Below are positions 12,542-38,676 of a DNA stretch of 42,934 nucleotides, in pieces. The position numbers and the translations under genes are program-made. The DNA is taken from IMG/VR virus record IMGVR_UViG_3300048121_000930, positions 1-42,934 of that record; one strand, written 5' to 3'. Source of the stretch: a virus. The first letter of the stretch is position 1. Each line of letters opens with the position of its first letter. Below the pieces are notes generated by a model, which saw only the letters and a list, made by a program, of their open reading frames with translations, was not told where the DNA came from and searched no databases.

Positions 12542-12576
12542 AAAGAGGGAGCAATACAAGTTATTGTTCCCTTTTT
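12542..12576. terminator. Bidirectional terminator between converging gene blocks
   Basis: AGGGAGCAATA (12546-12556) pairs with TATTGTTCCCT (12562-12572) over 11 positions with one G-T. Flanking A/T pairs extend the stem, and T5 follows on the plus strand. The minus-strand version is followed by CTCTTTTCTC. The stop codon of the 2306-residue minus gene (12561-12563) lies inside it. The rest of the 128-base gap (12433-12560) holds only short stems such as ATTAAG-AG-CTTAAT (12493-12506) and no gene. Confidence 0.75.
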
Positions 12577-15500: not shown

Positions 15501-18500
15501 TAATGATGCCTGGACGATAGTCTCACCCTTATTAGAAATCAACTCAGCCATTGCCTCTTCTCTAGCCAGCTGTGTGTCTCCGTTTTCTAGTATAGACTTC
15601 TTAAGAGTATCTGTACCTTCTAACAGATTGTATCCTGATTGTAATAACTCAGGATTGTTTTCTCTAACATAGTCTTGCCATACGTGACTATATTCGTGTA
15701 GAAGCACCTTTGTATTTGCATAGTCTGGATTAATATAAATCTTAGGATTTCCGTTTTCTTCCACCGTCAAGCCATAAACAACATCGCCTTTCTTTACATA
15801 TTTTTTCACTGAAGGGTCTGCGATCTTTGCTGTGAACTCTTGCTCTGTGTCTACAACAGAAACATCAGGAAATGTAAGCTTTAACTGAGACATAAGTGTT
15901 CTCATTTCGCTTATTTTATCTGCGATTTGAATTCCTCTATAACCATAGAAACCTGCAACAGGTCCATTAGCCATGACAGCACTTTGTATTAGTTGATCTA
16001 CTGATTTGTTTGCAAATGTTTCTCTACCACCTTTAAGAGAAATTGCCTTTGCCATCATCTCTGGAAATAAATCCATAGCGTGCACAGGTTTCTTTAAAAT
16101 ACCAATCCTAGTTCCTTTGATTCCGTATGGATAGTTTTTGTGGTCTATCTGTCTTACTTCTGGATTCAATACGTCTACAGCTACAAGAGATATAATATGA
16201 CGTTGTGGTATAGCTGCTGTTGATGGCTCGGCTATTAAGTTTCTTATTGTTCTAGCATGTATTACATTTCTAAGATCAGGATTTAATCCATCTATTAATG
16301 CTTTTGCCACAGGTTTTTGAGCTTTACCTGGAACTGTGTCTTCGTTTATGTTTCCAGTAAACAGTAGACCTCCTATTGCCTTCCTAGTTGTTAAAGGCAA
16401 CTCAGTAATGTTAGCCATCACTTGATCAATAGTTTTGTATTTTTTTACAAATTCATTGACTTTCTTATTGTCCTTAGTTAATCTTAAGAGCTCTTTATAT
16501 GAACGTATTCTGTTTTTCTTAGGAATAGATTTCTCTACTAACTCAGCAGACTTTCTGTAAAGAGCCTCATTATTTAGTAGTCCATCATCACTCATTTTTA
16601 TAACAGCCATAGGTACATGTCCGTAAGGAATCTTACCTTGCTCCCATAACCTTTGAAATAAAGGAATGTTTTCTTGATATGTTTGTACTGCACGCTCTAT
16701 AGACTCATTACCTTTGGACTCTGTAGTGTTTGCCCAAGCTAAATCTTGATATAAAGAATTAAATCCTGATCCACCTTCATATGTTTGACCCTCAAATGTT
16801 CCAGTAGCAAGTTCATCTGAAATAGTAAACGTCATTGGGACGCCATTGTATTCCTTAATGTCTTCTATGATATTGGTATCTGGATACCTTTCTAATATTG
16901 ATTCAGTATTAACCTCAGCCTCTGTAGTTAAGTTAGATGGCTTATCAAATTGCAATACCTCAGCAGGCATTGAATTCATTTCAGATATCATTTGATCTAT
17001 GTCGTATGATATTTCCTGTTCTGTTTGTTCTTTGGAGTATTTAGGAGGTTTTCCTTGAATTTCTCTTATCTCATTAACCTCTATTTGTTCTGGAGTAAGT
17101 TTAACTTCAGCACCAGCCTTACCTGCTAACGCTTGCTCAACTTTGTTACGAAGAATTTGCCCTTCTGAACCTGCTTCGGCTGCACGTTTTCGAACATTTT
17201 GAAGAACTTGTTGTCTTTCCTCTTCTCCAATATATCTTGAATCTGCTGCTTTGATCTCTTTTGTCTCATAATTAACGTTGTTTTGTTCTAATTCATCGAG
17301 TAAACTTTCAAACTTTTGATCTATTTGTTCGTCTCTAAAGTCATGAATGTCAAACAAAGTTAATACATTTTGTTCTTCATTCAAAGTAAAATCAGTAATT
17401 CCTAACTTTTTAAGAGCGTCTAGTGTTGCTTGAGAATCACTAACAGACACCGAATAGATGTCAGCATTGTGCCTTTCACTGTCCCACTGAACCTCTTCAG
17501 ATGCAATGGTAGACTCTTGTATTTCTGGAGTTAACCCACCTAATAAAGATGCAAACTCCTCAACCTGATCTAAACTTTCCGCCTCTACATTCACTACGTT
17601 CGAAACTTCTGTTATTGGCTTACCAAGTTTTTCCATGTAGTAACCACCGATAGCCTGATCTATCCCATCTATCTTTATGCCTGTTACTTTTGCAACATCA
17701 TTTATTGTCTCTAAATAGACTTGATAATCTGAAGCCTGTCTTGCAGCTGAAGCATCATCAATTGATGAGATTTCTCTTTCATAAAAAGGAGCAACAGCTA
17801 CCTGTGCTTTTACTGGTTCAGGTCTTTTTTTTGCTTGGTCTCTTAATGTAGATAATTCTGTTGTTAAATTTCCAATTTTTCTTTGTAATGGACCAATATA
17901 TCTTTTTTTGGTTTGCAGATCTCTGTCTGTGTTTTCAATAATCTTAATGTTATTAGAGATTTTATTTAACTCCTCATAGATTTCCACAGCCCTATCGACT
18001 TCTTTTTCTTCCATTCTTTCGATAACATCTAAATTATCGTTTTGAATGTCACGCATCCTATCAAGCTCTGCTTGCTCAACTGCATCAAGAGATTTTAATT
18101 GTTCTGGGGTTACGTTTGGTCCATTCTTTTCGTTTTCAAGCTCATTTAAATTATCTAAAATTTCTTGTTGCTCACCATACTGTTCTTCTGTACGTAGCAT
18201 TGTAACTAGCTTAGGCAAGTTATTACCTGCATACTTAGCACCTCCAGTAATAATTCTGCCCCCAATAACACTTCCTTTTCCTCCAAGAACTCCGTTCATA
18301 AATGCATTAAACAATCTTCTTTTATTGCCTAATACATTGTCAGCTATCTGTCCTGAATATTCAGAAAAGTTTATATCTTCTCCTGACTCAACTCTTGCCT
18401 GTAGCCTTGCTATTTCTTCATTACTAAGGGATGCAATTTCTTGTCCTAATTCTTGACCAGCATTTTCTCCACCAACTTTTAAAAGATTTGCAAAAAACTG

Positions 18501-22272: not shown

Positions 22273-23274
22273 TTATAGATTACGGTATCTAGAGCGTATT
22301 TCATCAATGATATGAGTGGATATAAGATACTCCTTGTTAGGATCTAATTGATCTATTTGCCATTCAGGGTTTCCACACTTGTCATGCATCCACAAAAAAG
22401 CGGAGTATTTATAGACAGTCATCATAGAAAAGAAGGTGTCTAACGCCTCTTTCTTATCGGTTCTATAGTTTGTCCATTCTGGATTGTCTTTTTCTATAGC
22501 CCAAACATCACATATAGGACCTCCATACCAGCATCTATCCCAGTACGAGGCTACTCCAACGTGACTTTCGTATAAATACAATAAGTTTAAAGTCATATTA
22601 AACTTCAGTCCTATGTCATGTAGGTGTTTCTTTATCACCTCAAGTGTTAGTCTTTGCCAAGAAAATTCATCTCCAATATAAACAGCATCTGTTCTAGAAG
22701 TAAATCTATCATCGTGTAGCATTTCTCTTATCATGTAATGCTCAGGATCAAAGTTAACCCAGCAATCATTCCTTGGGAATATAGGTATGTGGTCATACCC
22801 CCTAACCTCTCTATGCCTTCCTGGAATACAATCCTCTGGTGTTAGTTTATTGTAGTGACACGTATGTGGGTCATATGAAGCACAGAAAGCATTTGACAAT
22901 GTGCTTGTACTAGGCATAGTTCTAAAGCATATGTCGTCTGTATCTATATAGCTACCCCCATATTTATAAATTAGAAGCAGTCTAAATAAGTCTGATCTCT
23001 CTCTTGGTGAGGTTGAGTTATATATGTTTTTAATTTCTTTTATATTCTCCAGGTCTTCTATAGGACTATATATACTATCGTCCCACGTTACTATTTGAAT
23101 CCCATACTTAGGATCAAACATATCTTGATGTAACGAATTTGTTATAAGATATATTGGTCTGTTTTGATTGTGATATCTTGCTGAGTACAATGCATCGTCC
23201 AGTATTTTTTTTCGCTCTGGAGATATTGGACCATCCCAGTAGTAGATTAGATTGTGTTTATTTTTTTGGATCAT
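22273..23274 (-). CDS. Glycosyltransferase, GT32-like (DXD)
   Basis: This gene encodes 333 residues. The opening IPRIIHYxWxG-type strand is represented by NLIYYWDGPISPERK. The sugar-nucleotide signature SDLFRLLLIYKYGGSYIDTD sits at about 93-112. It is the classic GT32 / capsular-polysaccharide 'R.D..R..iLy.yGGiY.D.D' motif, with the metal-binding DTD. A Trp/His-rich C-terminal part follows. It should transfer a sugar from a nucleotide donor in the cytoplasm. It is the last of four glycosyltransferase genes in a tight run; its start overlaps the preceding gene by 17 bases. The acceptor is unknown. Confidence 0.85.
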   Translation of the reverse strand: MIQKNKHNLIYYWDGPISPERKKILDDALYSARYHNQNRPIYLITNSLHQDMFDPKYGIQIVTWDDSIYSPIEDLENIKEIKNIYNSTSPRERSDLFRLLLIYKYGGSYIDTDDICFRTMPSTSTLSNAFCASYDPHTCHYNKLTPEDCIPGRHREVRGYDHIPIFPRNDCWVNFDPEHYMIREMLHDDRFTSRTDAVYIGDEFSWQRLTLEVIKKHLHDIGLKFNMTLNLLYLYESHVGVASYWDRCWYGGPICDVWAIEKDNPEWTNYRTDKKEALDTFFSMMTVYKYSAFLWMHDKCGNPEWQIDQLDPNKEYLISTHIIDEIRSRYRNL

Positions 23275-23911
23275 ATTTAGATTTATATGTTTTTATATCT
23301 TTATCCTGTATTGGTCTGAACTCTGATTTATTAGAAGTAACAGATACCTTGTCCGTGTACAGATAAAGGTTTCTAATGAACCATCCATTTCCTTTCACAT
23401 GGTTTAGTAAGTAATCATCTCCACACGCTATTTTCAAGTCTTCTGGTATATTTACCCAATTTGATTTCTTGATAAAAAACAAACAACCCCATCCCCATCC
23501 ACGTTCTATTCCATCTTGGGGCTGCTTGCCTATCATGTAACTTCCATCGCCTTCTACCTCTGGATAATAGTTTGCTGAGTGCATTCCTATTACACCTTTG
23601 TCTATGTGTTGCTCGGCAAAGTCTAGCACATCAATTGAGTCAAAGAGTATGTCATCATTTGCTACACATATGTTTTCATTCTTTGCAGTATGTACGCCTA
23701 AGTTCCAGGCAGGATTCACATAGATGTTTTCTTTTTGTTCTAGCAATACAATTTTAGGAGAAGAAACTCTCAGTATTCTAGCTTTTGGATTGTTGTCTAT
23801 GATTATAATCTCACTAACACGTTCATCTTCTATCATGCAAGTAAGCATATAGTTTATTCTAGGTGATGCCCATAACGTAGGAACTATAACACTAAAGGGC
23901 TGCTTTGTCAT
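23258..23911 (-). CDS. GT2-family glycosyltransferase
   Basis: This gene encodes 217 residues with the GT-A fold order of family 2. FSVIVPTLW at the N-terminus is followed by IIIIDNNP, a NPAWNLGVHTAKNENICVAN stretch and the metal-binding NDDIL. GWGWGCLFFIKKS and a GDDYLL acceptor/catalytic region come next. It is compact for the family but has the main landmarks. It overlaps both neighbours, so it is translated as part of the glycosyltransferase run. A nucleotide-sugar-dependent transfer in the host cytoplasm is expected. Confidence 0.82.
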   Translation of the reverse strand: MTKQPFSVIVPTLWASPRINYMLTCMIEDERVSEIIIIDNNPKARILRVSSPKIVLLEQKENIYVNPAWNLGVHTAKNENICVANDDILFDSIDVLDFAEQHIDKGVIGMHSANYYPEVEGDGSYMIGKQPQDGIERGWGWGCLFFIKKSNWVNIPEDLKIACGDDYLLNHVKGNGWFIRNLYLYTDKVSVTSNKSEFRPIQDKDIKTYKSKYDPKK

Positions 23912-24590
23912 CTTTTTCTCTTATTTGACCGTAATAGTCTGCTATAAACTTAGGCTTCAAATGGTATATTCCAGACTCTTTCATGTCATTGTCTACTCTC
24001 TGAAACATTTCTTCTTGCTTTACGTCTCCCATACCTGATATATGATAGGTGCTCATGCCCCATCTGTATATCATAGACATCTCAGGATACTCATGTATCT
24101 TAGCGTTATGAAAGAATGTAAGCCAATTGTCTTCACCAAAAGACTGATCAATCCATTCTATTCTCGATATATAATCTTTACTATATATGTTTCCGTTGTT
24201 TATAGAGCTACCTCTGTCTTGATATTCGTTGTTGCTAAAGAAGTAATGACCTTCTGATCTATAAACCTCGAAGTCTGGATTCTCTGTAATCACTTTCTTT
24301 GCATCTCTCAGACTAAACTCTGTTAGCAAATCATCATCGTCTAGTCTAAACATATATTTGTTTTTGGCAAATGAAAATGCAAACTTTAGTTTTGCTAGTA
24401 TAGAAGGAAATCTTTCAGTGTGATTTATAATCTTCACTCTGTCATCTACATCGTCTAGCAAATACTTTACTTCTGGTGCGTCATTTACGATGATCATCTC
24501 AGTATCTTTCTCATTCTGTCTTAAGAAAGATTCTATAGCCTCTTCAAGTATGTGGTGTCTTTTGTAGGTTAGTGTTACTACTGATATCAT
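23892..24590 (-). CDS. GT2-family glycosyltransferase
   Basis: This gene encodes 232 residues. ISVVTLTYKRHHILEEAIES and MIIVNDAPE at the N-terminus, then the strong metal site MFRLDDDDLL, identify a family 2 GT-A enzyme. The C-terminal half has the typical aromatic acceptor region (RIEWIDQSFGEDNWLTFF). It starts four bases before the end of the upstream glycosyltransferase (ATGA-type overlap) and overlaps the next by 20. The donor sugar cannot be read from the sequence. Confidence 0.83.
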   Translation of the reverse strand: MISVVTLTYKRHHILEEAIESFLRQNEKDTEMIIVNDAPEVKYLLDDVDDRVKIINHTERFPSILAKLKFAFSFAKNKYMFRLDDDDLLTEFSLRDAKKVITENPDFEVYRSEGHYFFSNNEYQDRGSSINNGNIYSKDYISRIEWIDQSFGEDNWLTFFHNAKIHEYPEMSMIYRWGMSTYHISGMGDVKQEEMFQRVDNDMKESGIYHLKPKFIADYYGQIREKDDKAAL

Positions 24591-25564
24591 GCTCCTGTTG
24601 TTATGGTTACGTACTCTCCTGTATCAGGATTAAGAACTTGCACAAGATGTTCTTCTTCTTTTTGCAAAGCTTCTTTAACCATCTCATAGTACTTGTGTCC
24701 ACAGGTACTTGTCTCGTAGGTTTTATTTAAAGGGGGAAATTCATTCATGTATAGTGCCTTGAAGAACTGTTTGTCGTTCCCAGCAACTACGCCAGCGTTG
24801 TGATAGATTGCGTTCTTATCCCATTGGTCTATTCCAGATGTGGACCAAGAAAAGTCCAGCTCTGGTATAACCATTGTTTGGTTTCCTCTTTTCCAAAGAT
24901 TCCAAAGTACAGCCCACATATCAGCACACCATATCTGCACCTCGTGGTGACTAGAATCCGCTTCCTTCTTTTCTCCATTAAGCTTAGATATCTCTACATA
25001 TAATCTAGTACAGTCTCTTTCCACATCCCTCCAGTAGAACTTGTCTATGTTCTTAATCATGTATTGAGCTCCTCCTGAATGATGTTGATTTTTTTTAACT
25101 GTCTCTTCATCTATAGCCATGATAGTTAACATCTTCTCCAGAACATCTCTGCCCTTTGAGAGTATGTAGTCGTATCCTATATAAGATATGGTGTCTGATA
25201 AATAACATATCTCATCCCTGGTTAACTTTTCTGTTGGTAAGGGTTTAGTTAATGCAATATCACAGTCGTGATAGAATATGTGATGCTTATATAAGTCTGG
25301 ATATTTGTCGAAGTGTTTTTGTAATATGTGCGGTCTTATGCTAGATATGTATCCACGTTCTGCTCTAGTGTCCTCGTAGAATTCAAAGGTTACGCCAGGA
25401 TATTTTGTAGCCATAAGTTCATAGTGTGGGTCTACATTTCCATGTATAGCACAAACTATATGAACATCTTCTAAGTTTACATTCTGTTTTCTGAAAGAGT
25501 GGAGCATGGTATCTATTTGCCATGCATAGTATTTGGTTGCTGGTTGAGCACAAATGTATTTCAT
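24587..25564 (-). CDS. GT-A glycosyltransferase, possibly peptide O-glycosyltransferase-like
   Basis: This gene encodes 325 residues. The opening YICAQPATKYYAWQIDTMLH, then HHIFYHDCDIALTKPL with the DxD metal site, HHSGGAQYMIKN and DMWAVLWNLWKRGN define a GT-A enzyme. The combination DxD, then GGAQY, then a Met/Trp helix reminds me of plant-type peptidyl-serine galactosyl- and hydroxyproline arabinosyltransferases. That similarity is from memory and weak. It is first in the run of four, two bases after the tail-protein gene. A protein acceptor such as the Thr-rich adhesin encoded upstream is an attractive possibility. Confidence 0.7.
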   Translation of the reverse strand: MKYICAQPATKYYAWQIDTMLHSFRKQNVNLEDVHIVCAIHGNVDPHYELMATKYPGVTFEFYEDTRAERGYISSIRPHILQKHFDKYPDLYKHHIFYHDCDIALTKPLPTEKLTRDEICYLSDTISYIGYDYILSKGRDVLEKMLTIMAIDEETVKKNQHHSGGAQYMIKNIDKFYWRDVERDCTRLYVEISKLNGEKKEADSSHHEVQIWCADMWAVLWNLWKRGNQTMVIPELDFSWSTSGIDQWDKNAIYHNAGVVAGNDKQFFKALYMNEFPPLNKTYETSTCGHKYYEMVKEALQKEEEHLVQVLNPDTGEYVTITTGA

Positions 25565-25566
25565 AA

Positions 25567-26520
25567 TTATGGGTAGCTCTTAGAGATCTCCGAGTTTACG
25601 GCAAAAATCTCTATAGGCTCGGTACTATTGTTAGTTAATTTAATTTCTGCATAGTACCCCTTCAAACCATAACTTTCAGCAATAGGATTCTTAGCGGAGA
25701 ACATAAAGTCTCCTGGATTCACAACAACAGATGACCCACCCAATATGAGTGACTGATCTGTTCTTTCTGATACATTTCCTATAAACTGATATGAACCACC
25801 AACGGCTCTAAATAATGCGTCTCCAACTGATATATTGTTGGGGACAAGATTAAACGTGTAAGTTAAATTATCGAGTAGTACTAAATTTCCAATGCCTTGC
25901 ACAGATAACAACTCAGGTTTAGCTGCATCTGATTCATCACGTCTTATATATGAATAGTATTGACCTTCTTTTTCCTTGAATGATTCTTTGTTTACATGAC
26001 CTCTGTCTAAATCCGTAAGTATAGTTACATCCCAGTTTCCGTTGTCTCCCTCTATTTCTATTGTCTTAAATATCTTAACCTCTGATGGCGATGCGTTAGA
26101 TACAAAGGTAACCTCTGTATTGTACTCTTCACCATAGAAAGTGTTTCTGGAGTCTTCGTTTGCATGATGTTTCCACAGCTGACCATCTTTAAATGTATAG
26201 AAATCACTGTTCATGTTGATCATGTTTTCAGGAAGATACGAATAAAATGTAGTCCATCCTTTATTATATTCAGAGAATGCTAATGTTTTTTCTTCACCAT
26301 CTCCTTTTGTTGGATTTACATACTCATCTAATATGCTGTCTGGCTCAATAGGTAGTGAGTATTCTCCAGGAGGCACAGGGTTAACTGGACACTGATCTGT
26401 AAGATACTTTGGTCTATAGTCTGGATCACCAGGAAGGTTCTCCTTTACCTGATTGGTTGCCTTACCATTAACGTATTTTCTGAGGCGTTTTACCTCCGCA
26501 TAACCTGATCTATACTTCAT
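25567..26520 (-). CDS. Tail/virion structural protein
   Basis: This gene encodes 317 residues. A Pro-rich N-terminal half (residues about 25-75) leads to a central stretch. There, GWTTFYSYLPENMINMNSDF, FKDGQLWKHHAN, NTFYGEEYNTEVTFVSN and KIFKTIEIEGDNGNWDV match a module I recall from large virion proteins of crAss-like and other Bacteroidetes phages. The C-terminal 100 residues are beta-rich, like a receptor-contact or jelly-roll domain. No signal peptide is present. It follows the Asp-box protein and precedes the glycosyltransferases. It is likely a tail-associated protein; the precise place in the virion is unknown. Confidence 0.7.
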   Translation of the reverse strand: MKYRSGYAEVKRLRKYVNGKATNQVKENLPGDPDYRPKYLTDQCPVNPVPPGEYSLPIEPDSILDEYVNPTKGDGEEKTLAFSEYNKGWTTFYSYLPENMINMNSDFYTFKDGQLWKHHANEDSRNTFYGEEYNTEVTFVSNASPSEVKIFKTIEIEGDNGNWDVTILTDLDRGHVNKESFKEKEGQYYSYIRRDESDAAKPELLSVQGIGNLVLLDNLTYTFNLVPNNISVGDALFRAVGGSYQFIGNVSERTDQSLILGGSSVVVNPGDFMFSAKNPIAESYGLKGYYAEIKLTNNSTEPIEIFAVNSEISKSYP

Positions 26521-26537: not shown

Positions 26538-29500
26538 TTAACACTTATCGTAATCTGGAAGGTTCTTTGAATTGCCAGTCTCCACAACAAAACCATCTTT
26601 GACAAGCATATAATTGTTGTTTTCTATATCAAACCACATAGGCTCCTCGCCTTCAGAACCAAAGAAATCCACTATGTCCTCTACCATATAATAACCATCT
26701 AAATAAGGTGTGCCATAAACATCAGCATATAGCTTGACTCCTATTGTGTTAATATATTTTGCTCCTCTTGGTGGAAAAAATATTAATTTACCACCGTAAT
26801 CTGGAGGATTGTTTTCCTGTATGTATACGTTATTCCAAGAGTAAGAAGTTGGGATCGGTATAGTATAATCAGTTACATAGGTAGTTAAGTCTTGTATCGT
26901 TTTTTTATTTGCTTTTGCAGGCACATCTGCTCTATCCTGTATGTTATAAAACACGTTTCTTTGTACACTTCTCATCACGGCATGACCATCTTCTGACTGG
27001 TCGTTAGTGAATAAGAACCAAGTTGCCTCAAATCCGTGACTTGCATAGCTAGACTGATTATATGTTTCATCTTGTTTTATTCCTTCAGTTATAGTTTGAT
27101 TTGGAATACTTGGGATAACAACTGGCTCACATATAGAAAAAACAATAATATCAAAAACACCATCAAGCTTTACTAATTCTCCAGTGTACTTAACATAAAC
27201 AATTGTAAATGGGTTTTGCGAATAAAATTCTGCTTTTCTTACATATCCTGGTGCAACATCGTAATTTAGATTAGCACTATCAGTATACGCTGGATAAGAT
27301 ATTTCTATCACAGAACTTCCATCAACAACTGTAGGTGCTTCTGGTTCAGGCAAAACATCTAATCCATATGATCTAGTTATATACAATCTAGGTTGTCCAT
27401 CTGGTTGATCATAGTCCGCATACATGTTAAAGATAGGTAGTCCATAGTATCCGTCTGAAAGATAGTCTGGGTTTGTTGTAGAGTTTACATCTGTATAAGT
27501 GTATTCCTGTTCTACTGACCATGAGTCTATCAGTCTGTCGTATGTTGGAGGAGAGGTTTCTAAAGAATCTGACAAGTTAAATAGTCTTGGCTTGACTGCA
27601 TATCCTTCTCTTATTAAAGCATACCAATTTCCGTTTGCTGCTGGCATTACATTCTGAATTACCAGGTTAGGATTGTTGTCACCATCAACATCAGATGGAT
27701 CATAAGATACTGGTTTCCATGTTATAAAATCATTGGTAAGTAAAAAAGTACTTGAAGTTCCCACTTGGATTTTGAACTCACCAGTATATGGGTTAACATC
27801 TAACCCATAACTCCATGTTTGAAAATCGCTACTAGTATAAGTAACATTATCAGTAGTTGTTAAAGATGTCATTTGAGTCCATGTCTGACCCCTGTCTGTT
27901 GTTGTGTAGTAGTGAAAATCACCGTGCTGTATTATTCCCTTTTGACCATATGCTGCAAGCTGTCTTACAGGGCTTGTGCTCCAAGCTAAAGACGTTTGTG
28001 AAACTTCATAAGTAGCCCAGTTATTAGCGTCTGACAAAACTGTTTGATTAGCAGGGAGTATCCACGACTTTCTACCTGAGCTGTAATTTCTACTCTCCAT
28101 GATCCATAAGTAACCGTCTGTATATTGAAATTTTGGATTGCTACTATAAAATGTATATGCACTTACATTTGACGGAGTGTTCCAGGTTGAACCAGAGTCC
28201 AAGCTATATATAAACTCTGGATTTCTACTTGCTTCAATATGTATAAACGGATCTATTCCGTTTGCCTCGCAATTTATAGTATATATATAAGCAAGACTAT
28301 CTGGATGTGTATATAGTGGCGTAAAATTAGTTCCGCCATCTGTACTTTCAAATAAGACCCAATCCTCATCAACCGCTGATACTGGTCCGTTTTGATCACC
28401 AGATGCAAGTATACGATTTCCGTATGGAGCCATTCTATTTGGTGCTAGACCAGCAGGCGTTTGTGCTGCACTGTTTCCTGTGGCTGTTGTTGTCTGACCT
28501 ACTATATCCCAAGAATACCAGTAATAAGTGCCAAAATTTGGATCTTGACTAAGATCATATCTTACATTATGAAATAGTATATTGTTTCCATAAATAATAG
28601 AATTACCTCCATAGTTAGTGTCAAAAGGTCCTATTATACTACTTGTTAATCCTGAAGGAACGCCAAATTCTGCTTTATCTCCCCAACCCTGAGGGACCAC
28701 ACCAGTAAACCAGCCTTCTTCATTTTTAATTTTCACTTCCATCACACCATTTACCAGTCTGTTGTTTGTCATAACATTGTTCTGATAGTTTGCATTTTCA
28801 TCTGTATGACTTGTTATAACAATGGTTCTCCCATTAAAGTAAAAAGGACTTGGATATTTTTCTGGATATACATAGGTGTCTCCAGTAACTGAATGCACTT
28901 GACTTATTGTAGGTAGATCTGTGTCTGTCCAGTTAAGACCAAAATTCCAAGACACTGCGTATTTATCTTGAGTCGTAAATAAACACATTCCGTTATCGGA
29001 GACAGACAATGGCATATTCTGATAAGGACCGCTACTCATAAAGAGTACATCGTCATAATTAAAGTCTACACCTGCATAAGTAGGAGGATTCCCTTGAATG
29101 AGTTCCCTAGCCAATACTGGTCTTATTTCTCCACCATTACTAGCACCTTGTTCACTTAAGAATCCTCTAAACAAACCCCACTGGGAAAATTGCGTAGTAG
29201 ACGGAGAAACCATTCTAGGCAAATAAACAAATATATAATCTTTGTCCATGTCGACCCAAAGCCTACCTCTGTTAAAGTTGTCTAAGCCAGTGTTATATAA
29301 AGTTTCTATTCTTTGAAAGTCATTGTAAGTGTCTGGACCATCCCACAAGACTTGGTTAAAACTAGCACCATCATCAATAGACTTGTAAATCAAATTGTCG
29401 TTTCTTCCAGGAGCCGTCCAATACACTAAGGCATACCAGACGTGGTTTTCAATACTACTATCATAGCCTGCATATACCACATCACTCCAGTACGTGTTAG

Positions 29501-30614
29501 CGACATAAGAACTGATTCCCCCCATTTCGGTTATCATTTGCCATGTTTCACCTGCATCAAAGGATATTCTGGGTATTGTGTTTGTATTGCTGCTCCCATC
29601 AGCATAATGAATTGATATCCATGTGTTTTCACGAGTAATCAACTGCCCATAAGGTTCAATAGCATTTGTTGTACTACTATTGTTTTGTATTGTTCTTCCT
29701 TGATTTATCTTAGAAAAAGAATATCCATTATTTGTTGACCATAAGTAATTATTACCTTCTTGTGTTTTAAATTGTGGACTGTAATACCCTCTGCTACTCG
29801 CAACAAACTCACAGTCTCCAATTTTAGATAGATAAGTTTTTGTTGTTCCAAAACCGTGTCTTTTAAAAAAATAATTAGGAGCACATGAATCCTGATATCT
29901 AATCCATCCGTTTGTACTTCTAAAACCATCTTGAAATATCATAGTGGCTTTGTCAAAATCTGCTGTGATTGTTATTGCGACATTACCCCAATACATATCT
30001 ATATTTCCTGAATACAAACTGTTATTAACGAAAACACTCTTACTCAAACTACCAGTAACCGTTATGCCTGGATTCTCTGAGTATAACGTAAATGCATCAT
30101 TTTCTTCATCAACATAATAGTCGTATGTTGTTTGATACATTCCAGCATACAAAAAAACTGCACCACTTGCATAGGAGCCTGTATAGTTATTCTGCCCAAC
30201 GTATGTAGTGTAGGGTGTTATTCCGTTTATTCTTGGAGAACCTCCTTGACCTGTAAAAACTAAATATTCAACTGTAGGCAAGCATGAAGCAACAATTTTT
30301 TTTGTAAAAAAGTTTATATAAATTTCATTACTGTTATCATCAGTTGGATCTAGGTCTGGTATATTGTATGATAAAGTTACTGTGACTGTTTCTGTTCCAT
30401 GGACACCAGTGCCATCACCATAAAATTCTGCATAATCATTTCCATAGGTGATTGTCATTGGACCATTGTTAGTGGTATCCCACTCTTCTCCTCTTATTGT
30501 ATATACCTGTGGAGCGTCTGTAAACATATATCCTTCTTGTGGCTTAAAAGAATATACAAATTGACCTGATTGATTTTCTCTTACACAAACTTTATGTATT
30601 GTTGTTTCTGCCAT
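26538..30614 (-). CDS. Tail protein with Asp-box (BNR) beta-propeller repeats
   Basis: This gene encodes 1358 residues, almost all beta and aromatic. At least six Asp-box-like turns (S-x-D-x-G-x-T-W) are visible: SFDAGETW, SIDDGASF, STDGGTNF, SLDSGSTW, TTDRGQTW, and the weaker STNNGYSF and SWNFGLNW. These mark one or more beta-propellers, as in sialidases and other glycan-binding proteins. The first 110 residues look like an Ig-like virion-anchoring domain. The FRIP motif and the Arg triad of true sialidases were not seen, so glycan binding or receptor recognition is more likely than catalysis. Position after the nozzle/adhesin supports a tail spike or fibre. Confidence 0.75.
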   Translation of the reverse strand: MAETTIHKVCVRENQSGQFVYSFKPQEGYMFTDAPQVYTIRGEEWDTTNNGPMTITYGNDYAEFYGDGTGVHGTETVTVTLSYNIPDLDPTDDNSNEIYINFFTKKIVASCLPTVEYLVFTGQGGSPRINGITPYTTYVGQNNYTGSYASGAVFLYAGMYQTTYDYYVDEENDAFTLYSENPGITVTGSLSKSVFVNNSLYSGNIDMYWGNVAITITADFDKATMIFQDGFRSTNGWIRYQDSCAPNYFFKRHGFGTTKTYLSKIGDCEFVASSRGYYSPQFKTQEGNNYLWSTNNGYSFSKINQGRTIQNNSSTTNAIEPYGQLITRENTWISIHYADGSSNTNTIPRISFDAGETWQMITEMGGISSYVANTYWSDVVYAGYDSSIENHVWYALVYWTAPGRNDNLIYKSIDDGASFNQVLWDGPDTYNDFQRIETLYNTGLDNFNRGRLWVDMDKDYIFVYLPRMVSPSTTQFSQWGLFRGFLSEQGASNGGEIRPVLARELIQGNPPTYAGVDFNYDDVLFMSSGPYQNMPLSVSDNGMCLFTTQDKYAVSWNFGLNWTDTDLPTISQVHSVTGDTYVYPEKYPSPFYFNGRTIVITSHTDENANYQNNVMTNNRLVNGVMEVKIKNEEGWFTGVVPQGWGDKAEFGVPSGLTSSIIGPFDTNYGGNSIIYGNNILFHNVRYDLSQDPNFGTYYWYSWDIVGQTTTATGNSAAQTPAGLAPNRMAPYGNRILASGDQNGPVSAVDEDWVLFESTDGGTNFTPLYTHPDSLAYIYTINCEANGIDPFIHIEASRNPEFIYSLDSGSTWNTPSNVSAYTFYSSNPKFQYTDGYLWIMESRNYSSGRKSWILPANQTVLSDANNWATYEVSQTSLAWSTSPVRQLAAYGQKGIIQHGDFHYYTTTDRGQTWTQMTSLTTTDNVTYTSSDFQTWSYGLDVNPYTGEFKIQVGTSSTFLLTNDFITWKPVSYDPSDVDGDNNPNLVIQNVMPAANGNWYALIREGYAVKPRLFNLSDSLETSPPTYDRLIDSWSVEQEYTYTDVNSTTNPDYLSDGYYGLPIFNMYADYDQPDGQPRLYITRSYGLDVLPEPEAPTVVDGSSVIEISYPAYTDSANLNYDVAPGYVRKAEFYSQNPFTIVYVKYTGELVKLDGVFDIIVFSICEPVVIPSIPNQTITEGIKQDETYNQSSYASHGFEATWFLFTNDQSEDGHAVMRSVQRNVFYNIQDRADVPAKANKKTIQDLTTYVTDYTIPIPTSYSWNNVYIQENNPPDYGGKLIFFPPRGAKYINTIGVKLYADVYGTPYLDGYYMVEDIVDFFGSEGEEPMWFDIENNNYMLVKDGFVVETGNSKNLPDYDKC

Positions 30615-30626
30615 TTTATTTTGCTT

Positions 30627-33600
30627 TTAAATCAAAGTTGTTGTTGTTGTGTTTACATAAGATAAATCCCAGTCATTAGTGTAATACAATACACCTTGTT
30701 CGCAATCAAACCTACCAATAACTTTAGCATCTTCATATCTAACAAAAATAATATTCGTTATAATTGTTGGGCTACCATTTGTTTGCATTATAGCAAAGTA
30801 ATTATCTAAATTAAGACCTTGGAAGGAATTAGAACCTCCACTGAAATTATTTGTTCCATAACTTATGCCTGTTCCTGGAAGCGGTCCTGTATAAGTAGCA
30901 TTTGTTCCAAAGTAACCTCCCACTGTGTTATAAAGAAATCCTCCTGAAACACTATTAGCAGAATTACCACAATAAGTTGATACTAAATTTAAAATATCAG
31001 AAGTTGTTGGGTGACTTGAGAAGTTTACTAAATTTGACCAAGAGAATGCAGTGTTTCCTGACTGTAGTGTTTGACTAAACAAATCCATTTCTATATTAGA
31101 GTTTGGAGTTTGATATAGCATTTGTGCTGGATCAATCACGACTTCAAAACATGCGTTTGCATCAAAGTTTGGATCCAATGGATATGCATCTATATTGTCT
31201 GGAGTTCCATCGTTATCATCATCATTGTCTAGATAATCTGGAATTCCATCACCATCAGTGTCTATTGTAGATGTTGTGGTTGTCGGCTGCACAGTGGTTG
31301 AACTCGTAGTCGGTATTGCTGTTGTAGATGAGGTTGTTGTAGGTGCAATTGGGCAATCTACATTTACATACCATGCAGTTCCTGTTAGTGGTGCATACAC
31401 CTCTACATCTAAATATCTATACGATGTATTTTTATACCATCTTATAGATAATGCATCTTGTTTTGCTGTAATAGTTTCTGTTGATAATCCTGCTCCAGTC
31501 AAATAGTTATCAAGCTGTGATTGATAGGTTATGTCTCCTAAATATCCAGTGTCATAAACTACACTACCGAGTCTTTTTACAATAAACTTATCTGGAATAG
31601 CCGATGCTTGTACTGTCATGTTGACCCATCCAAGCCCATATCCTAAATCTATTTTAAGTGCACTAGGGAACGCCTGACCACTAGTGTAATTGAAACTAGC
31701 TGGACAAGATTGTAAATTGTACGTCAAGGTAGTTGTTGGAACTGTTGGGTCCGTAGTGGTTGTATATGTAGATGTGGTAGTTGAACTACAAGATATCTTG
31801 TCTAATACTTGACCATTCTCATCTATCTTCAATAAAAACCTCTCATATTGGTTTGGGCTATTTGGATAAGTAAGATATGCTGTTGCTATAAACCATGAGT
31901 ATGTTGTGCTTTGCTCCAATCCACCATCAAATGTACCATGATTCATTGTTTTAACATAATCACCAACCGAAGGTATTGTGCCAGAACCTGTATGTCTCAT
32001 TTGTTTAATATAGTAACCAGCCTCACATAAACTGCCTAAAGAGTAATTAGTAGATCCTCCATATGTAACTGCACTAACATGTGATTCTAAAGAGTACCAC
32101 ATAAATCCATACGCATCAGCACCAAAATAAAACACATCTAAAGTAGTTGTCGGAGGTTCCGTAGTACTACTAGTGCTGCTAGTAGTTGGAATCAACGTTG
32201 TACTGGTAGTAGGTTCTAACGTAGTTGTAGGTTCTAAAGTAGTTGTAGGTTCTAGAGTAGTCGTTGTAGGTTCAAATGTAGTTGTACTGGTAGGCGGTGA
32301 TAGCGTTGTAGTAGGTAGTAATGTAGTACTTGTAGTTGGAAGTATAGTTGTTGTAGGCTCTATCGTAGTTGTTGGTTCAACGGTAGTTGTTGTCGTTGTT
32401 CCTGGACAAGCAGGACATACGGCAGTAACATATCCATTGTTATCAATTCTAATAGCATCTTCTACATATCCGTATCCAGAATTTGTTCTTACAGCGTAAT
32501 ATAAATTACCTCCATATAGTGGAGATGAATTTGATGCTCCATATATTCTTTCTCCAACACCAGGCAGTCCTACACCATTCCAATATATGCCAAAATTATA
32601 GTGAGTGTATTGATCACATGTTGCATCACAATTAACGAAGAATGTTCCGTTTCCATAATTGTTTTTAGACCCTAAGTACAAATCAGTTCTTTGAGTAGTT
32701 GTACTAGTCGTAGGCTGCTCAGTAGTAGTTGTAGTAGGCTCTAAAGTAGTACTTGTTGTCGGTTCTATAGTCGTACTTGTCGTTGGCTCTAAAGTTGTTG
32801 TCGTAGGCTGAAGAGTCGTACTTGTAGTGGGTGGTGCCGTTGTTGTGGTTGTTGGACATGGAGAACAAATGTCTATTATCTGACCATTGTTATCAATTTT
32901 AACGGCATATTCAATAGGAGCACATCCTCCTGTACCGCCTATTTGGAATGCAACATGAGCTGCACCAGTAGCTGTTGGGCTAGTTAAAGCTGCATTATCA
33001 TAAACATAGTCACCAACTTGCGGTACATTTCCTCCAACCCAATAATAATCTATATTAAAGAATTGAGCTTCATTTCCACAGTAATTTGTGCATGTTACTT
33101 TAGTTGTAGTGCCACATAAGTTTGGACCTAATCTAACTAATTGAGCAGAAACAGTTGTCGTACTTGTCGTTGGCTGAATTGTAGTGGTAGGTAACAAAGT
33201 TGTAGAACTAGTAGTTGGCTCCACTGTAGTTGTACTCGTAGTCGGTAACAACGTGGTTGAGGTAGTTGTGCTTAAACTAGCATCTGTAGTTGTGCTCGTA
33301 GTAGGCAACAATGTAGTTGATGTTGTTGTCGACAATGTGGGGTCTGTAGTGGTACTAGTAGTAGGCTCTAATGTTGTAGACGTAGTAGGCTCTAATGTAG
33401 TACTAGATGTAGATGTAGTAGGTTCTAACGTAGTGCTTGTAGTGGGTAATAATGTAGTAGTAGAAGTATATTGACTACACCAGTGAATAGAAACTATGAT
33501 ACCATCTTCATTTATTCCGTATACAGTGCTACTGTAGACCTCATTACAATTAAGATTTGTAACAATATATTTAACTCCGCCAGCCACTCCATGTGACATA

Positions 33601-34826
33601 GGTTGATTTGTCTTATCTTTTATTAAGTCACCAACCAGAGGGAACACAAAGGATCCTTCCCAATATCCTGTGACTAAACTTGTCTGATCTTCAAAACAAG
33701 CTGTTATATGATCGTTGTAATAAAGAACCTCACCTTGAGCATCCTCGTAGTAACATAATTCCTGTGGTGGCTGTGTAGTTGTACTAGTTGTTGGCTGTTC
33801 TGTGGACGTGGTAGTCGTTGGTGAATCTGTAGTTGTACTAGTTGTTGGAACTAGAGTAGTCGATGTTGTTGTGCTTATTCCAGGAAGTAGAGTTGTACTA
33901 GTTGTAATCTCTAAGGTAGTTGATGTTGTCGCTGGAGGACTAGTAGTAGATGATGTTGTAGTACTAGGTGACTCTGTAGACGTAGTAGTCGTTGGCTCTA
34001 GTGTAGTGCTAGATGTTGTTGTAGAACAAGTGTATGCATCAATTACATATCCACTTTGATCAACTTGTATTGCTCCTGACTGAGAGTTTGCTGTATTTGA
34101 GTTTCCTGCGGCAAACCAACAGTTTCCTCCTTGTAATATAACACCATTTGTTCTCCTGATAATATCTCCTACAACTGGAAGAGTGTTTTCTCCATTATGA
34201 CAAGCCTGAAATAACATTTGTGTAGCTGAAGAACAAGCTCCTAAACCTGAAGAAAAACAGTACGGAGATGTACCGTTACCTGTACCTATATAAAAGTCAT
34301 TACAAATAGGCAGTGTTGTACTAGATGTTGTACTGCTTGTACTAGATGTTGTACTAGATGTTGTACTAGATGTTGTACTAGATGTTGTACTAGATGTTGT
34401 ACTCGTAGTGCTTGTAGTTGAGCTAGTGCTAGTAGTAGTTAATGTAGGGTCAAGCGTTGTGCTTGACGTACTCGTAGTTGGAGTAGATGTTGTGGTGGAT
34501 GTTGTGCTACTTGTACTCGTTGTGCTACTTGTGCTTGACGTAGTTGATGTTGTTGGAGGTACACATGAAGATTTCTCAGTTATTGTACCATCAAATCCAA
34601 CCTTCATTGTAGCTGTTTGACTTCTTGGTGCGGTAGAGTTAGATATTGCGTAGTAGTAATTAAACCCAACGAATACCGTTCCATCCATTTTATATACAGT
34701 GTCTCCTACTTCTGGAAGTTCACCAGTACCATTATGACAAAGCTGTAGTAGAGTGTAATCTGTATTGCCACACGCATCTACATTCGTAGTGTAGTATACT
34801 AGATTTCCATCCGCATCAGTACCCAC
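30627..34826 (-). CDS. Mucin-like Thr-rich adhesin with repeated Cys domains (probably the C-terminal part of the nozzle protein)
   Basis: The ORF has 1399 codons from a GTG, but the frame is open further upstream to the 11-T tract at 34923-34933. Its first domain lacks its opening strand (VCNPFFVGTD) unless read from there. About six copies of a roughly 90-residue domain occur near 1-91, 171-267, 355-447, 559-656, 714-807 and 896-1012. They share a phrase like LPxVGDxxY, a GGxxYYAV-like strand and I-D-x-x-G-x-I...C. They are separated by Thr/Ser/Pro linkers (LEPTTSTT units). A different beta domain follows (about 1032-1158), then a thrombospondin-3-like Ca-binding stretch (about 1187-1218) and a final domain. 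It is a surface adhesin or fibre; no independent start signal is evident. Confidence 0.78.
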   Translation of the reverse strand: MGTDADGNLVYYTTNVDACGNTDYTLLQLCHNGTGELPEVGDTVYKMDGTVFVGFNYYYAISNSTAPRSQTATMKVGFDGTITEKSSCVPPTTSTTSSTSSTTSTSSTTSTTTSTPTTSTSSTTLDPTLTTTSTSSTTSTTSTTSSTTSSTTSSTTSSTTSSTSSTTSSTTLPICNDFYIGTGNGTSPYCFSSGLGACSSATQMLFQACHNGENTLPVVGDIIRRTNGVILQGGNCWFAAGNSNTANSQSGAIQVDQSGYVIDAYTCSTTTSSTTLEPTTTTSTESPSTTTSSTTSPPATTSTTLEITTSTTLLPGISTTTSTTLVPTTSTTTDSPTTTTSTEQPTTSTTTQPPQELCYYEDAQGEVLYYNDHITACFEDQTSLVTGYWEGSFVFPLVGDLIKDKTNQPMSHGVAGGVKYIVTNLNCNEVYSSTVYGINEDGIIVSIHWCSQYTSTTTLLPTTSTTLEPTTSTSSTTLEPTTSTTLEPTTSTTTDPTLSTTTSTTLLPTTSTTTDASLSTTTSTTLLPTTSTTTVEPTTSSTTLLPTTTIQPTTSTTTVSAQLVRLGPNLCGTTTKVTCTNYCGNEAQFFNIDYYWVGGNVPQVGDYVYDNAALTSPTATGAAHVAFQIGGTGGCAPIEYAVKIDNNGQIIDICSPCPTTTTTAPPTTSTTLQPTTTTLEPTTSTTIEPTTSTTLEPTTTTTEQPTTSTTTQRTDLYLGSKNNYGNGTFFVNCDATCDQYTHYNFGIYWNGVGLPGVGERIYGASNSSPLYGGNLYYAVRTNSGYGYVEDAIRIDNNGYVTAVCPACPGTTTTTTVEPTTTIEPTTTILPTTSTTLLPTTTLSPPTSTTTFEPTTTTLEPTTTLEPTTTLEPTTSTTLIPTTSSTSSTTEPPTTTLDVFYFGADAYGFMWYSLESHVSAVTYGGSTNYSLGSLCEAGYYIKQMRHTGSGTIPSVGDYVKTMNHGTFDGGLEQSTTYSWFIATAYLTYPNSPNQYERFLLKIDENGQVLDKISCSSTTTSTYTTTTDPTVPTTTLTYNLQSCPASFNYTSGQAFPSALKIDLGYGLGWVNMTVQASAIPDKFIVKRLGSVVYDTGYLGDITYQSQLDNYLTGAGLSTETITAKQDALSIRWYKNTSYRYLDVEVYAPLTGTAWYVNVDCPIAPTTTSSTTAIPTTSSTTVQPTTTTSTIDTDGDGIPDYLDNDDDNDGTPDNIDAYPLDPNFDANACFEVVIDPAQMLYQTPNSNIEMDLFSQTLQSGNTAFSWSNLVNFSSHPTTSDILNLVSTYCGNSANSVSGGFLYNTVGGYFGTNATYTGPLPGTGISYGTNNFSGGSNSFQGLNLDNYFAIMQTNGSPTIITNIIFVRYEDAKVIGRFDCEQGVLYYTNDWDLSYVNTTTTTLI
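34341..34400. repeat. Five perfect 12-bp tandem repeats in the adhesin linker
   Basis: ACTAGATGTTGT is repeated five times without mismatch. A sixth copy at 34320-34331 is separated by nine bases. On the minus strand it encodes TTSS units of the first Thr/Ser-rich linker. The unit is a multiple of three, so copy-number change would alter linker length without breaking the frame. Perfect identity suggests recent expansion. Confidence 0.9.
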
Positions 34827-34920
34827 AAAGAATGGGTTACATACAAACTGAGTTGTTGTAGATGTAGTAAGATTTGGATTTTCTGTTGTTAGAAGAGGAA
34901 GGGTAGTACTGGTAGTAGTA

Positions 34921-37900
34921 TCAAAAAAAAAAATCCGTAGTCGTACTCGTAGTAGGTTGCTCTGTAGTTGTGCTTGTTGTCGGCTCTAGGGTAGTCGAAC
35001 TAGTGCTTGTAGTACTAGTGGGAGGGGCATCATCATCGTATATTAGCTCGCATTCAACCAAATCAGGTCTCCACTCCGTTAGCGTTTCTTGCAGTGTTAA
35101 AATAAGTTCTCTAGTGTGAGGATCATATCCAGATAATATTCTTTTTGAGCTATCTGATTTCAATCTATCCCTAAACCAGTCGTTCATTCCATAGTCCGAT
35201 ATCTGTTCTATACCATCTCTAGAAAGTCTACATACTGATCCACGTCTTTCGTCTACAAAATATATTCTTGTGCCCCATAATATTACAGAGAACTGATGTC
35301 TAGTAACACCAAACTCTCCTGAGTAAGCTACTACAGCTCCTAATATGTCAGAAGTCGATGTTACGCTTCCAGAACCATCGGCATTATAAAGTACATTCTT
35401 ATTTATAAGAACTCTACTAACTCTGTTTTCCTGGAATACAATAAGGTCTGTGTCTCTAGGTATTATTTTATTTATGTCCCCAAACTTATCGTCTAAATCC
35501 TTGTAATTAAGTTCAGCTAAATTAAAGTCATTTAAGGCGTTGAATTTAGTTGACTGCTCATATGCTCCACTATACGTTAAAGAGGTTGTTCTAAATGATC
35601 TCTTATAGTCTAAGATATTTGTCAGAGGCTTGTTCTCTAACTTATATTTAGGAGAATTAAATAAGTCACGTATCTTGTAACTCTCAACACAGTTACCCCA
35701 TCCCCATGCATTATAAAATGGTACAGTTATGGATGCTGGTGTTGTATTGTCTTGGTTAGTGTTTCCAGAGTGATATCCCTGTGAAGTAATGTCATAAGTG
35801 TAAGGAACTTCATAATACAAAGATGCATTATCTTCTACTGGTTTTGTTTCAAAACAAAGCTCGTCACTTGTGGCTCTAATTACAATTCTCGACTTTAAGT
35901 TTACTTTAACTCTCTTGTCTGCAATACTGTTTTGAACTCCAATAGATCTAATGATCATATTTAAAGGATCAGTAATAGACCTTGTTATTGTAGTCGATTC
36001 TTCTCCGTATGTTCCTCTTTCAAAATATATTCTAGACTCTGTGAACTCAGTATCAAATATAGCTTTTACTCCACTAGCTTCATGATACCATTCTTCAATA
36101 TTCGCATAGTTACCATCGGAAACAAACTGATAAACCCAATTTTGTGTCTCTTCATTATATTCGTCATATTCGATGTTAATGACAGTACCAGTTCTAATTT
36201 CTTGGTTGTCTATTGGTAATCCTGGTATTGTTGGATATGCTATTTTATCACCATCGTAATCAGGATTGCTTGGCTTCAAGTTTATAGTCCACCTGTCATT
36301 AGTATCGTGACCAGTGGCAAGTGCAAAGTTTGCCGTAATTCCATCTACAATAGTCTGTGCAGTACCAGCTGTGATAGCAACGCCAACTCCTGATTGACCA
36401 GCTGTGGCTGCGTCATCTAAATAATCTATAGTCCAAGATATTGTATCAAAAGTGCTGACACCATCTCCTGTTCCGTCTATAGATATAGTAAGTCTTGCGT
36501 ATTCTGAACCACTATAAGTACCATCTATTACTACGTCATTTTGATTTGAAGTAGTGCCATAATAAAACGGATTGAATGTTCCATTTTGATTAGATGATTC
36601 CGCATCAATAGCTGCGTTTGCAGTTCCATATCCGTCTAAAGGATTGTCCAAAGAATTACTACTGTCATCGTAGTCATCACTTTCATATATATCATAATCA
36701 GATATATTCATTCTAAAACCTACAGGTTTTATCACCATATAAGTTCCTGAAATTTGTGCAATTGCAGGATCTCCAGACTCTGGATACTGATCGTTTTCTA
36801 AGAAATTTATTTCTTTTTTTACAACGTCAAGTATTTTAGTCTCTACTAAATTTGTTTTCTTTCCTCCTGTATCTGATTTAACTATGATAAAGTCTCCAGC
36901 TTTTACTTTGTCTATATCAGATGTGTTTAACAACACATATACTTGTCCAGTATTTGCATCATTGTAAAAAACAGAAGGTAATATTGTATGATAGTCTGTC
37001 TTAGTTTGTTTTACGAATATTCTAAAGTGACTAGCAAACTTAGGTGGTAGATGATTAATACTAAGTGTTAACCTGTTCTCTTCGTCTGAAGAGGAGTTAG
37101 GCACATAGACGGTGTTGTTGTCGCTTGTAAGAACAGTAGTTGATCTTCCAAATTCGTCCAAATAGACTAACCCTAATTCATAGTCTCTGTTAGTCTTTAC
37201 GGTGCTGTATGCGTTTCCAATATCTGCATCCGCAACTGATGTCCCTGTATAAGATGCCGTAAAATCTAAATCAACCTTTTCACCGTTACAGTTTACAAGG
37301 TCAAAGTTTTCTGTATAGTTACCATACACAATTCTATTTCCAACAAGATTTTGTGTTCCTGCTGTTATAGGTACATTATCGTAGTATCTTCTTAATTCTC
37401 TAGGATCTAATACACCGTATATCTTATTGTTTTCAAAAGTGATTGACTGATCAGTGTTATCAGTCCAGCTTTTTTTGTTCTTATTATAGGTGTCTATAAT
37501 AAATAGAGTTTCATCTCCAGCAACCTTAAATATAACCTGAACATCTGTTACCTTATTGTCTCCTACATTAAATGTAACATTAGCTTCATTTATTTTGTTA
37601 AGCATAGACTCATTAGAAGCTATACTGTAATCAAAGTTAAAGTTGTAAGGATCAAAGGCAACTTGACTAAAAGGTGACAATGGAGAAAACTCCCCTAATT
37701 TGTACTTATATCTATATGCAAAATATACAAACTTCTCTTTAAGGTTGTTTTCATAAGCCAGAGCGGACGTTTGTAAAGACAATGTAGGTGGGTATACAGG
37801 TGGCTTTACGATTACTGTAACATCAGATAAAACAAAATTATTCTCTCCCCATGTTTTCGCATCGTTTACTTCTATTCTTTTTGGTTGCGTTACGCCATCA

Positions 37901-38676
37901 GTAAAGAACAAAATAATACGATCATTGTCGTTGTCGTATAATACGTTTGACTCAATGTAGTTTGACTTAGAAAAGTTTAAAACATTTTCGCTGCCAACTC
38001 TACTATCTTTTAGCACGATAGAAGAAATGTTATTGTCTTTATCGTATTCAGCAATATAAGATCCGTCATCAGATCTTACAAACCAAAATATTTTATTGAG
38101 AGAATCTTCTGCTACTGAACCTAAAGAAACTGGATTGTCACCAAAGTCTAATACTGTTGCCGTACTACATGTTTCTTTGTACACAAAAGCATTTATTTCT
38201 GTCATTGTATCGTGATACTGACAGTCTATACTAATGGTGTCAAAATTTGATTTTATCTTTAGCACAACTGTGCCTGAGTAAAATGTATCACCATTTACCT
38301 CGTTTGTTGTAGTTGCACTTGTAACCTCATATGAGTCTGCATTACCGTTGTAAAATCTAATAGGATGCCCACTATCTACGTTAAAAGTATAATTACCTAC
38401 TCCTAAATGATAAGGTGCATTGTCATATAAGCTTTCTCCATTAAATAAATATGATCCTCCATTTCCAGTAACCGTGATATTACGGAGCATACAAGTGTCG
38501 GTTCCTACAGTCAAGGATGAGTTTGATAACGCATTCTCCATGGCACCCATACCTGAGCCTGCTGAAGTAAGTACGTTAGCATTTAATGCATCTCTGTATT
38601 CACCCTGCTGGACTAGACGCTCATCAGCGTCTTTATTCATTTTACCAGCCTGAAATATATTTTTAGCTTTTGCCAT
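34921..38676 (-). CDS. Tail nozzle/stabilization protein with cupredoxin-like insertion and Thr-rich tail
   Basis: This gene encodes 1251 residues as written. The N-terminus (NIFQAGKMNKDADERLVQQG at 6-25, then EYRDALNANV) matches the nozzle/muzzle family of crAss-like podoviruses, functionally like P22 gp10/T7 gp12 at the tail tip. Residues about 72-160 are an inserted cupredoxin-like domain with H90, H104 and C152-x2-H155-x2-M158. The long beta-rich body follows, with repeated-strand features such as NKIFWFVRSDDGSYIAEYDK. The C-terminus becomes a Thr/Ser linker (TTLEPTTSTTTEQPTTSTTT) ending DFFF at the 11-T tract. One base fewer continues into the adhesin frame. The next gene upstream ends exactly at its start (38676). 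Confidence 0.82.
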   Translation of the reverse strand: MAKAKNIFQAGKMNKDADERLVQQGEYRDALNANVLTSAGSGMGAMENALSNSSLTVGTDTCMLRNITVTGNGGSYLFNGESLYDNAPYHLGVGNYTFNVDSGHPIRFYNGNADSYEVTSATTTNEVNGDTFYSGTVVLKIKSNFDTISIDCQYHDTMTEINAFVYKETCSTATVLDFGDNPVSLGSVAEDSLNKIFWFVRSDDGSYIAEYDKDNNISSIVLKDSRVGSENVLNFSKSNYIESNVLYDNDNDRIILFFTDGVTQPKRIEVNDAKTWGENNFVLSDVTVIVKPPVYPPTLSLQTSALAYENNLKEKFVYFAYRYKYKLGEFSPLSPFSQVAFDPYNFNFDYSIASNESMLNKINEANVTFNVGDNKVTDVQVIFKVAGDETLFIIDTYNKNKKSWTDNTDQSITFENNKIYGVLDPRELRRYYDNVPITAGTQNLVGNRIVYGNYTENFDLVNCNGEKVDLDFTASYTGTSVADADIGNAYSTVKTNRDYELGLVYLDEFGRSTTVLTSDNNTVYVPNSSSDEENRLTLSINHLPPKFASHFRIFVKQTKTDYHTILPSVFYNDANTGQVYVLLNTSDIDKVKAGDFIIVKSDTGGKKTNLVETKILDVVKKEINFLENDQYPESGDPAIAQISGTYMVIKPVGFRMNISDYDIYESDDYDDSSNSLDNPLDGYGTANAAIDAESSNQNGTFNPFYYGTTSNQNDVVIDGTYSGSEYARLTISIDGTGDGVSTFDTISWTIDYLDDAATAGQSGVGVAITAGTAQTIVDGITANFALATGHDTNDRWTINLKPSNPDYDGDKIAYPTIPGLPIDNQEIRTGTVINIEYDEYNEETQNWVYQFVSDGNYANIEEWYHEASGVKAIFDTEFTESRIYFERGTYGEESTTITRSITDPLNMIIRSIGVQNSIADKRVKVNLKSRIVIRATSDELCFETKPVEDNASLYYEVPYTYDITSQGYHSGNTNQDNTTPASITVPFYNAWGWGNCVESYKIRDLFNSPKYKLENKPLTNILDYKRSFRTTSLTYSGAYEQSTKFNALNDFNLAELNYKDLDDKFGDINKIIPRDTDLIVFQENRVSRVLINKNVLYNADGSGSVTSTSDILGAVVAYSGEFGVTRHQFSVILWGTRIYFVDERRGSVCRLSRDGIEQISDYGMNDWFRDRLKSDSSKRILSGYDPHTRELILTLQETLTEWRPDLVECELIYDDDAPPTSTTSTSSTTLEPTTSTTTEQPTTSTTTDFFF
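34923..34933 (-). other. Eleven-T slippery tract joining nozzle and adhesin frames
   Basis: The minus strand reads GAT TTT TTT TTT TGA here. With 11 T the nozzle stops. With 10 (or 13) the frame runs without a stop through 32 codons into the 1399-codon adhesin ORF. With 12 it ends after a short tail. Tracts of nine or more T/A are known sites of transcriptional slippage and strand-slippage mutation. They are also sites of sequencing error. Confidence 0.75.

Follow-up and report, generated by a model that had tools for sequence, protein, structure and literature searches.

A conserved T10-T11 tract as a putative recoding site between a split crassvirus muzzle gene and a giant adhesin frame

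Recoded virion proteins, slippage genes, and the crassvirus muzzle

Several phage virion proteins are known to gain a C-terminal adhesin or Ig-like domain through a programmed frameshift, among them the major tail protein of SPP1 and TpeX of the lactococcal 936 phages, with further extensions in T3, A2, and Listeria phage PSA (PMC5009743; PMC6669499). In Citrobacter rodentium tssM1 and in Shigella mxiE and spa13, two frames meet at a run of 9-11 A or T residues, and a longer form arises by slippage. The A11 run of tssM1 slips at ~20%, both of its forms are needed, and slippage in the tens of percent is published for runs of such length (PMC4256274). Conserved A/T runs of at least nine across homologues have been taken as pointing to purposeful slippage (PMC1088944). 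For Escherichia coli RNA polymerase, poly(T) is the preferred template and deletion slippage climbs with T length (PMC6260861). When polymerase slips on homopolymers, single-base insertion is commoner than deletion (PMC6260861; PMC5574713).

The locus examined here is part of IMG/VR virus record IMGVR_UViG_3300048121_000930, all 42,934 nucleotides of which were analyzed and are referred to as the window. As in the phage systems above, a structural protein would be made either short or with a putative surface-binding C-terminal extension by a change of frame. Unlike in those systems, the carrier is a crassvirus muzzle protein, the extension would comprise ~1430 residues, the site is a T10-T11 run, and the added domain is not of a known Ig or CBM family. 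The locus shares with tssM1 and mxiE/spa13 a long A/T run at a frame junction; those, however, are bacterial secretion genes in which inserted bases restore the frame, whereas slippage here is putative and would have to be by -1 or +2. Searches of open-access literature, with incomplete coverage, turned up no earlier description of programmed transcriptional slippage acting on a phage virion gene.

The genes concerned are all on the minus strand:

34921..38676, minus strand: muzzle (tail-tip) ORF of 1251 codons, encoding the N-terminal portion of a crassvirus muzzle
30627..34826, minus strand: Thr-rich putative adhesin ORF of 1399 codons, with six Cys/VGD domains (six HMM hits) on Thr/Ser-rich linkers and a C-terminal region
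26538..30614, minus strand: 1358-aa downstream protein with its own ATG and a weak BNR/Asp-box signal, at the same location in all five lineages described below
25567..26520, minus strand: 317-aa ORF encoding the C-terminal portion of the muzzle (MUZ_C), conserved

The upstream ORF, labeled a nozzle in the first-pass annotation, matches instead the crassvirus muzzle family (PF25731 crAss_MUZ, 49.4 bits against a cut-off of 27, profile positions 1044-1187; phrog_14478, E 1e-242). At the tail tip of PhicrAss001, the muzzle protein gp44 forms a hexamer (PMC10172136), and a tail-tip location is expected for the protein encoded here, which belongs to the same family by Pfam. Unlike gp44, the window gene is split, with MUZ_C (PF25729, 63 bits; PF25731 profile positions 1187-1223, sub-threshold) in a separate ORF past two intervening ORFs, and an adhesin is appended by putative recoding. 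The split falls near Pfam profile position 1187, with the adhesin and spike genes between the halves, and the same separation is seen in the other four lineages. Related phages carry either a single muzzle chain (L012, L081, and phi38:1) or a comparable split. An alternative split is seen in L144 and L147, where the muzzle ends within the MUZ_C region at an ATGA stop-start overlap. In Maribacter phage Panino (L077, at about 16660), the muzzle gene is broken by a frame change that involves no homopolymer tract and that could be a sequencing error or real.

The source phage is crAss-like, and a nucleotide search of named phages with the window gave no match. Named relatives of the muzzle, at ~35% identity, are phages of Cellulophaga, Maribacter, Tenacibaculum, and Flavobacterium; the host is therefore probably a member of the Flavobacteriia.

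The T tract and its conservation

34923..34933, minus strand: T11 tract, putatively slippery, its final T being base 1 of a TGA stop
34921..34923, minus strand: in-frame TGA immediately 3' of UUU, which would yield the short muzzle; candidate +1 shift site UUU UGA, kept in five of five lineages
34827..34922, minus strand: 32 codons in the +1 frame between tract and adhesin ORF, comprising a Thr-rich linker and the first residues of Cys domain 1 and holding no start codon; the corresponding stretch is open in five of five lineages

The T11 of the coding strand (A11 on the plus strand) is the longest homopolymer in the window, the runner-up being 9. As the first-pass annotation had described, the muzzle ORF stops at the end of this run, within a Thr-rich linker; its 3' end reads GAT TTT TTT TTT TGA and its product ends in ...TTTDFFF. 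The same annotation had calculated that deletion of one T would open a path of 32 codons into the 1399-codon ORF. This holds, and addition of two Ts has the same effect: with T10 or T13, the frame continues as FFF-DTTTSTTLPLLTTENPNLTTSTTTQFVCNPFFVGTD... into the adhesin ORF. The joined-frame product in the window would read FFF-DTTTSTTLPLL...TTTQFVCNPFFVGTD before passing through that ORF, for a total of 1251+32+1399 = 2682 residues. A single added T (T12) gives, in the window, ~12 hydrophobic residues followed by a stop, such that fusion requires -1 or +2. Decoding of TGA as a sense codon was considered and rejected; frame 0 reaches another stop after ~27 codons, and read-through alone would therefore give no fusion.

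By composition alone, ~0.5 runs of at least ten Ts would be expected in 43 kb (an estimate), so the length of the tract is unremarkable and its conservation is the evidence to be weighed. Searches of IMG/VR with the muzzle and with DNA patterns recovered the tract in five distinct lineages, namely the window, L002 (96% muzzle identity to the window), L003/L005 (76%), L010/L155 (63% for L010), and L074/L154 (62%). The run is T11 in the window, L002, and L003/L005 and T10 in L010 and L154; GA always follows, and the phase is constant. The preceding codon, by contrast, has changed so as to preserve that phase, with T11 after GGA in the window group (GGAT) and T10 after GACC in the L010 group. All five lineages read TTT TTT TTT TGA, after which the Thr-rich frame proceeds as GAY ACY ACY. 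The tract is the longest run at every one of these loci, divergence is freer in the surrounding linker, and the +1 frame is uninterrupted over 1397-1568 codons in every case that extends to its end. Muzzle, adhesin, 1358-aa protein, and MUZ_C follow in identical order in all five lineages. In a maximum-likelihood muzzle tree, the tract-bearing clade is monophyletic (100/100), and its sister group consists of muzzles that carry Asp-rich repeats in frame; the five lineages represent one evolutionary origin. Motif matches in L075/L076 and L156/L157, where the DNA is apparently non-coding, were rejected as chance, and a wider search of GTDB genomes found no instance of the motif.

The sole other run of at least nine inside a listed gene of the window, an A9 at 7029-7037 in the primase/helicase gene, has decayed in both relatives checked, to A8 in L159 (the L002 genome) and to AAGAAAC in L160 (the L010 genome). 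Further, other shared Phe columns are all-TTT in only 17 of 47 cases, from which three such columns in a row would arise by chance in ~5%; a chance origin of the TTT purity at the tract thus appears somewhat unlikely.

These patterns also bear on two rival readings. Homopolymers are error-prone, and an over-called T in what is really one continuous frame had been named as the main rival explanation. The identical break is nonetheless present in independent assemblies from different metagenomes, three lineages having T11 and two having T10 without loss of phase, and since a change in the preceding codon compensates for the difference in tract length, an assembly error is effectively excluded. 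The earlier proposal of phase variation, whereby replication slippage would alter the tract between phage generations and toggle the adhesin at the population level, would suit a T11 run, which is long enough for mutation, and a surface-exposed product of the kind typically targeted (PMC3711429). Yet every lineage is in the identical stop phase, the change in tract length is phase-compensated, and a scan of the IMG/VR consensus contigs and muzzle relatives for runs of T9 or longer returned no in-frame T9 or T10 version and hence no mixture of on and off lengths. Phase variation is consequently considered quite unlikely.

The adhesin frame and its start

34560..34850, minus strand: Cys domain 1, starting 5' of the GTG (AlphaFold2 mean pLDDT 96.6, from a 42-sequence alignment)
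34824..34826, minus strand: GTG, putative adhesin start, judged not to be a start (missing in L003, L010, and L154; residue 9 of the folded domain, strand E5-11)

The architecture of ORF 30627-34826 suggests that its product is an adhesin. Each of its six Cys/VGD copies spans 85-100 residues, and a TSP3-like stretch gives a weak match (E 0.073). The domain had no Pfam or PHROG match at threshold, its predicted fold matched nothing in the PDB, and neither an Ig-like nor a known carbohydrate-binding fold was found for the extension by Pfam, PHROG, or PDB fold comparison. It does resemble uncharacterized phage proteins in BFVD, one of them from Cellulophaga phage phi17:1. A search with two adhesin domains returned only an already known contig, and no clear relative of the adhesin was found among named phages.

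Many relatives have copies of the domain within or next to their muzzle tails, and in L061, L067, L032, L085, and others these are in frame with the muzzle, which supports the fusion as the functional product. The L061 muzzle carries the same domain family on Thr-rich linkers, the muzzles of L004, L006, L008, and L079 carry Asp-rich TSP3-like repeats in frame, and in more distant relatives, this or a different adhesin domain is joined in frame at the equivalent muzzle position. The Cys/VGD domain may represent a new adhesin domain family distributed over related phage tail proteins.

The mechanical ORF list assigns the GTG at 34826 as the start of the second ORF, consistent with two separate proteins, the adhesin being initiated there or at another codon, or not made at all. 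The GTG is present in the window, where it had been noted as the only apparent start, and it is not conserved, being replaced by ATA in L003, L010, and L154 (three of the five lineages). In the adhesin frame, a start codon is first met at codon 32 for the window and L002 (a GTG), at codon 85 for L003, 67 for L010, and 98 for L154, and the Thr-rich frame 5' of the GTG is kept open and alike. The earlier suggestion that the first Cys domain begins upstream of the GTG agrees with the AlphaFold2 model, in which this codon is residue 9, behind a cysteine and in the first predicted beta strand; initiation there would cut away that strand and the Cys. Of 20 other relatives inspected, nearly all have a next gene with an ATG within ~15 nt of the muzzle stop; the overlaps behind those muzzles were rejected as further frameshifts, nearly all being ordinary ATG starts or ATGA overlaps. 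Independent initiation is accordingly very improbable, and with no conserved start and a frame open in five lineages, the adhesin domain appears reachable only via a change of frame.

Possible agents and consequences of the proposed frame change

The retention of the tract in five lineages in the same phase, with an adjacent TGA and no conserved start, the in-frame fusions of relatives, and the decay of the primase A9 run together make it very likely that the T10-T11 run is a programmed recoding site, with fusion by slippage of either the polymerase or the ribosome. The slippage half of the first-pass proposal is thus strongly supported, unlike its phase-variation half. Two tail-tip forms from one gene would follow from recoding.

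As to the agent, we infer slippage by RNA polymerase, which is modestly favored because the run has been kept far longer than a ribosome would require (UUU U). The TTT purity of the tract, the lack of a conserved RNA structure, and the literature on purposeful slippage at conserved runs, on slippage rates, and on the poly(T) preference of E. coli polymerase point the same way. A run of at least nine at a frame junction, conserved among homologues, is what marks slippage genes, and T10-T11 is found here in five lineages. Such genes typically, though not by strict definition, rely on single-base insertion, and the bias of polymerases toward insertion counts against polymerase slippage here since -1 or +2 is required.

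A serious rival, if a somewhat doubtful one, is programmed +1 ribosomal frameshifting, in which the P-site tRNA-Phe would slip from UUU to the overlapping UUU with UGA in the A site, giving the same fusion from an unaltered mRNA. The +1 frameshift site of prfB is CUU UGA, and the present locus likewise places a shift-prone codon immediately before UGA; unlike at prfB, no Shine-Dalgarno-like stimulator is seen, and the purpose would be structural extension rather than autoregulation. The slippery UUU and adjacent UGA are retained in all five lineages and the direction matches the shift required. The excess of insertions over deletions by polymerases (PMC6260861; PMC5574713) and the gain of domains by +1 frameshifts in other phage proteins (PMC5009743) also favor the ribosome. 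Codon identity is also raised over the 10 codons 3' of the tract (9/10 and 8/9, compared with ~50% elsewhere), and sequence context could be acting there. On the other side, four Us would suffice where ten or eleven are kept, and no stimulator was found, the alignment holding no Shine-Dalgarno-like element upstream and no conserved RNA structure near the tract (consensus fold without pairs, downstream z -1.24, no Rfam match). Additionally, frameshifting at the native prfB site is reported to be inefficient in Flavobacterium johnsoniae (PMC12421855), which lowers the ribosomal reading but does not remove it, the host of the window phage being only inferred. Both polymerase slippage and a ribosomal shift may act. 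An intrinsic terminator at the T run was rejected, as none was called there and a strong upstream stem is lacking.

Under polymerase slippage, most transcripts or ribosomes would stop at the TGA behind the run, giving a short muzzle with an FFF terminus. A minority of transcripts would, through slippage of RNA polymerase on the run, lack one U or gain two, and their conventional translation would pass through the Thr-rich linker into the six Cys/VGD domains of a 2682-residue muzzle-adhesin. Were both forms incorporated into virions, and were the muzzle hexameric as in PhicrAss001, mixed rings would bear from zero to six long flexible arms. If, for example, slippage ran at 20% and hexamers assembled at random, ~1/4 of virions would be without any adhesin. 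It is tentatively proposed that programmed RNA-polymerase slippage may in this way determine how many giant adhesin arms each tail tip bears in a dsDNA phage lineage, such that virions with identical genomes carry different numbers of adhesins. If so, homopolymer length would control the dosage of receptor binding, and standard gene callers would list the adhesin as an orphan ORF falsely started at a GTG. The crassvirus muzzle also represents a recurrent platform for swappable adhesins, whether in frame or recoded.

Other genes of the window may relate to the virion. The 1358-aa protein downstream of the adhesin is probably a separate tail spike, and a 2306-aa virion protein at 12561-19481 (phrog_22602) is probably internal or ejected. 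Beside the tail genes, 22273-25564 encodes glycosyltransferases (Gly_transf_sug and family 2, with another family-2 match that falls short of the cut-off) along with an unassigned ORF; speculatively, these enzymes might glycosylate the Thr/Ser-rich linkers.
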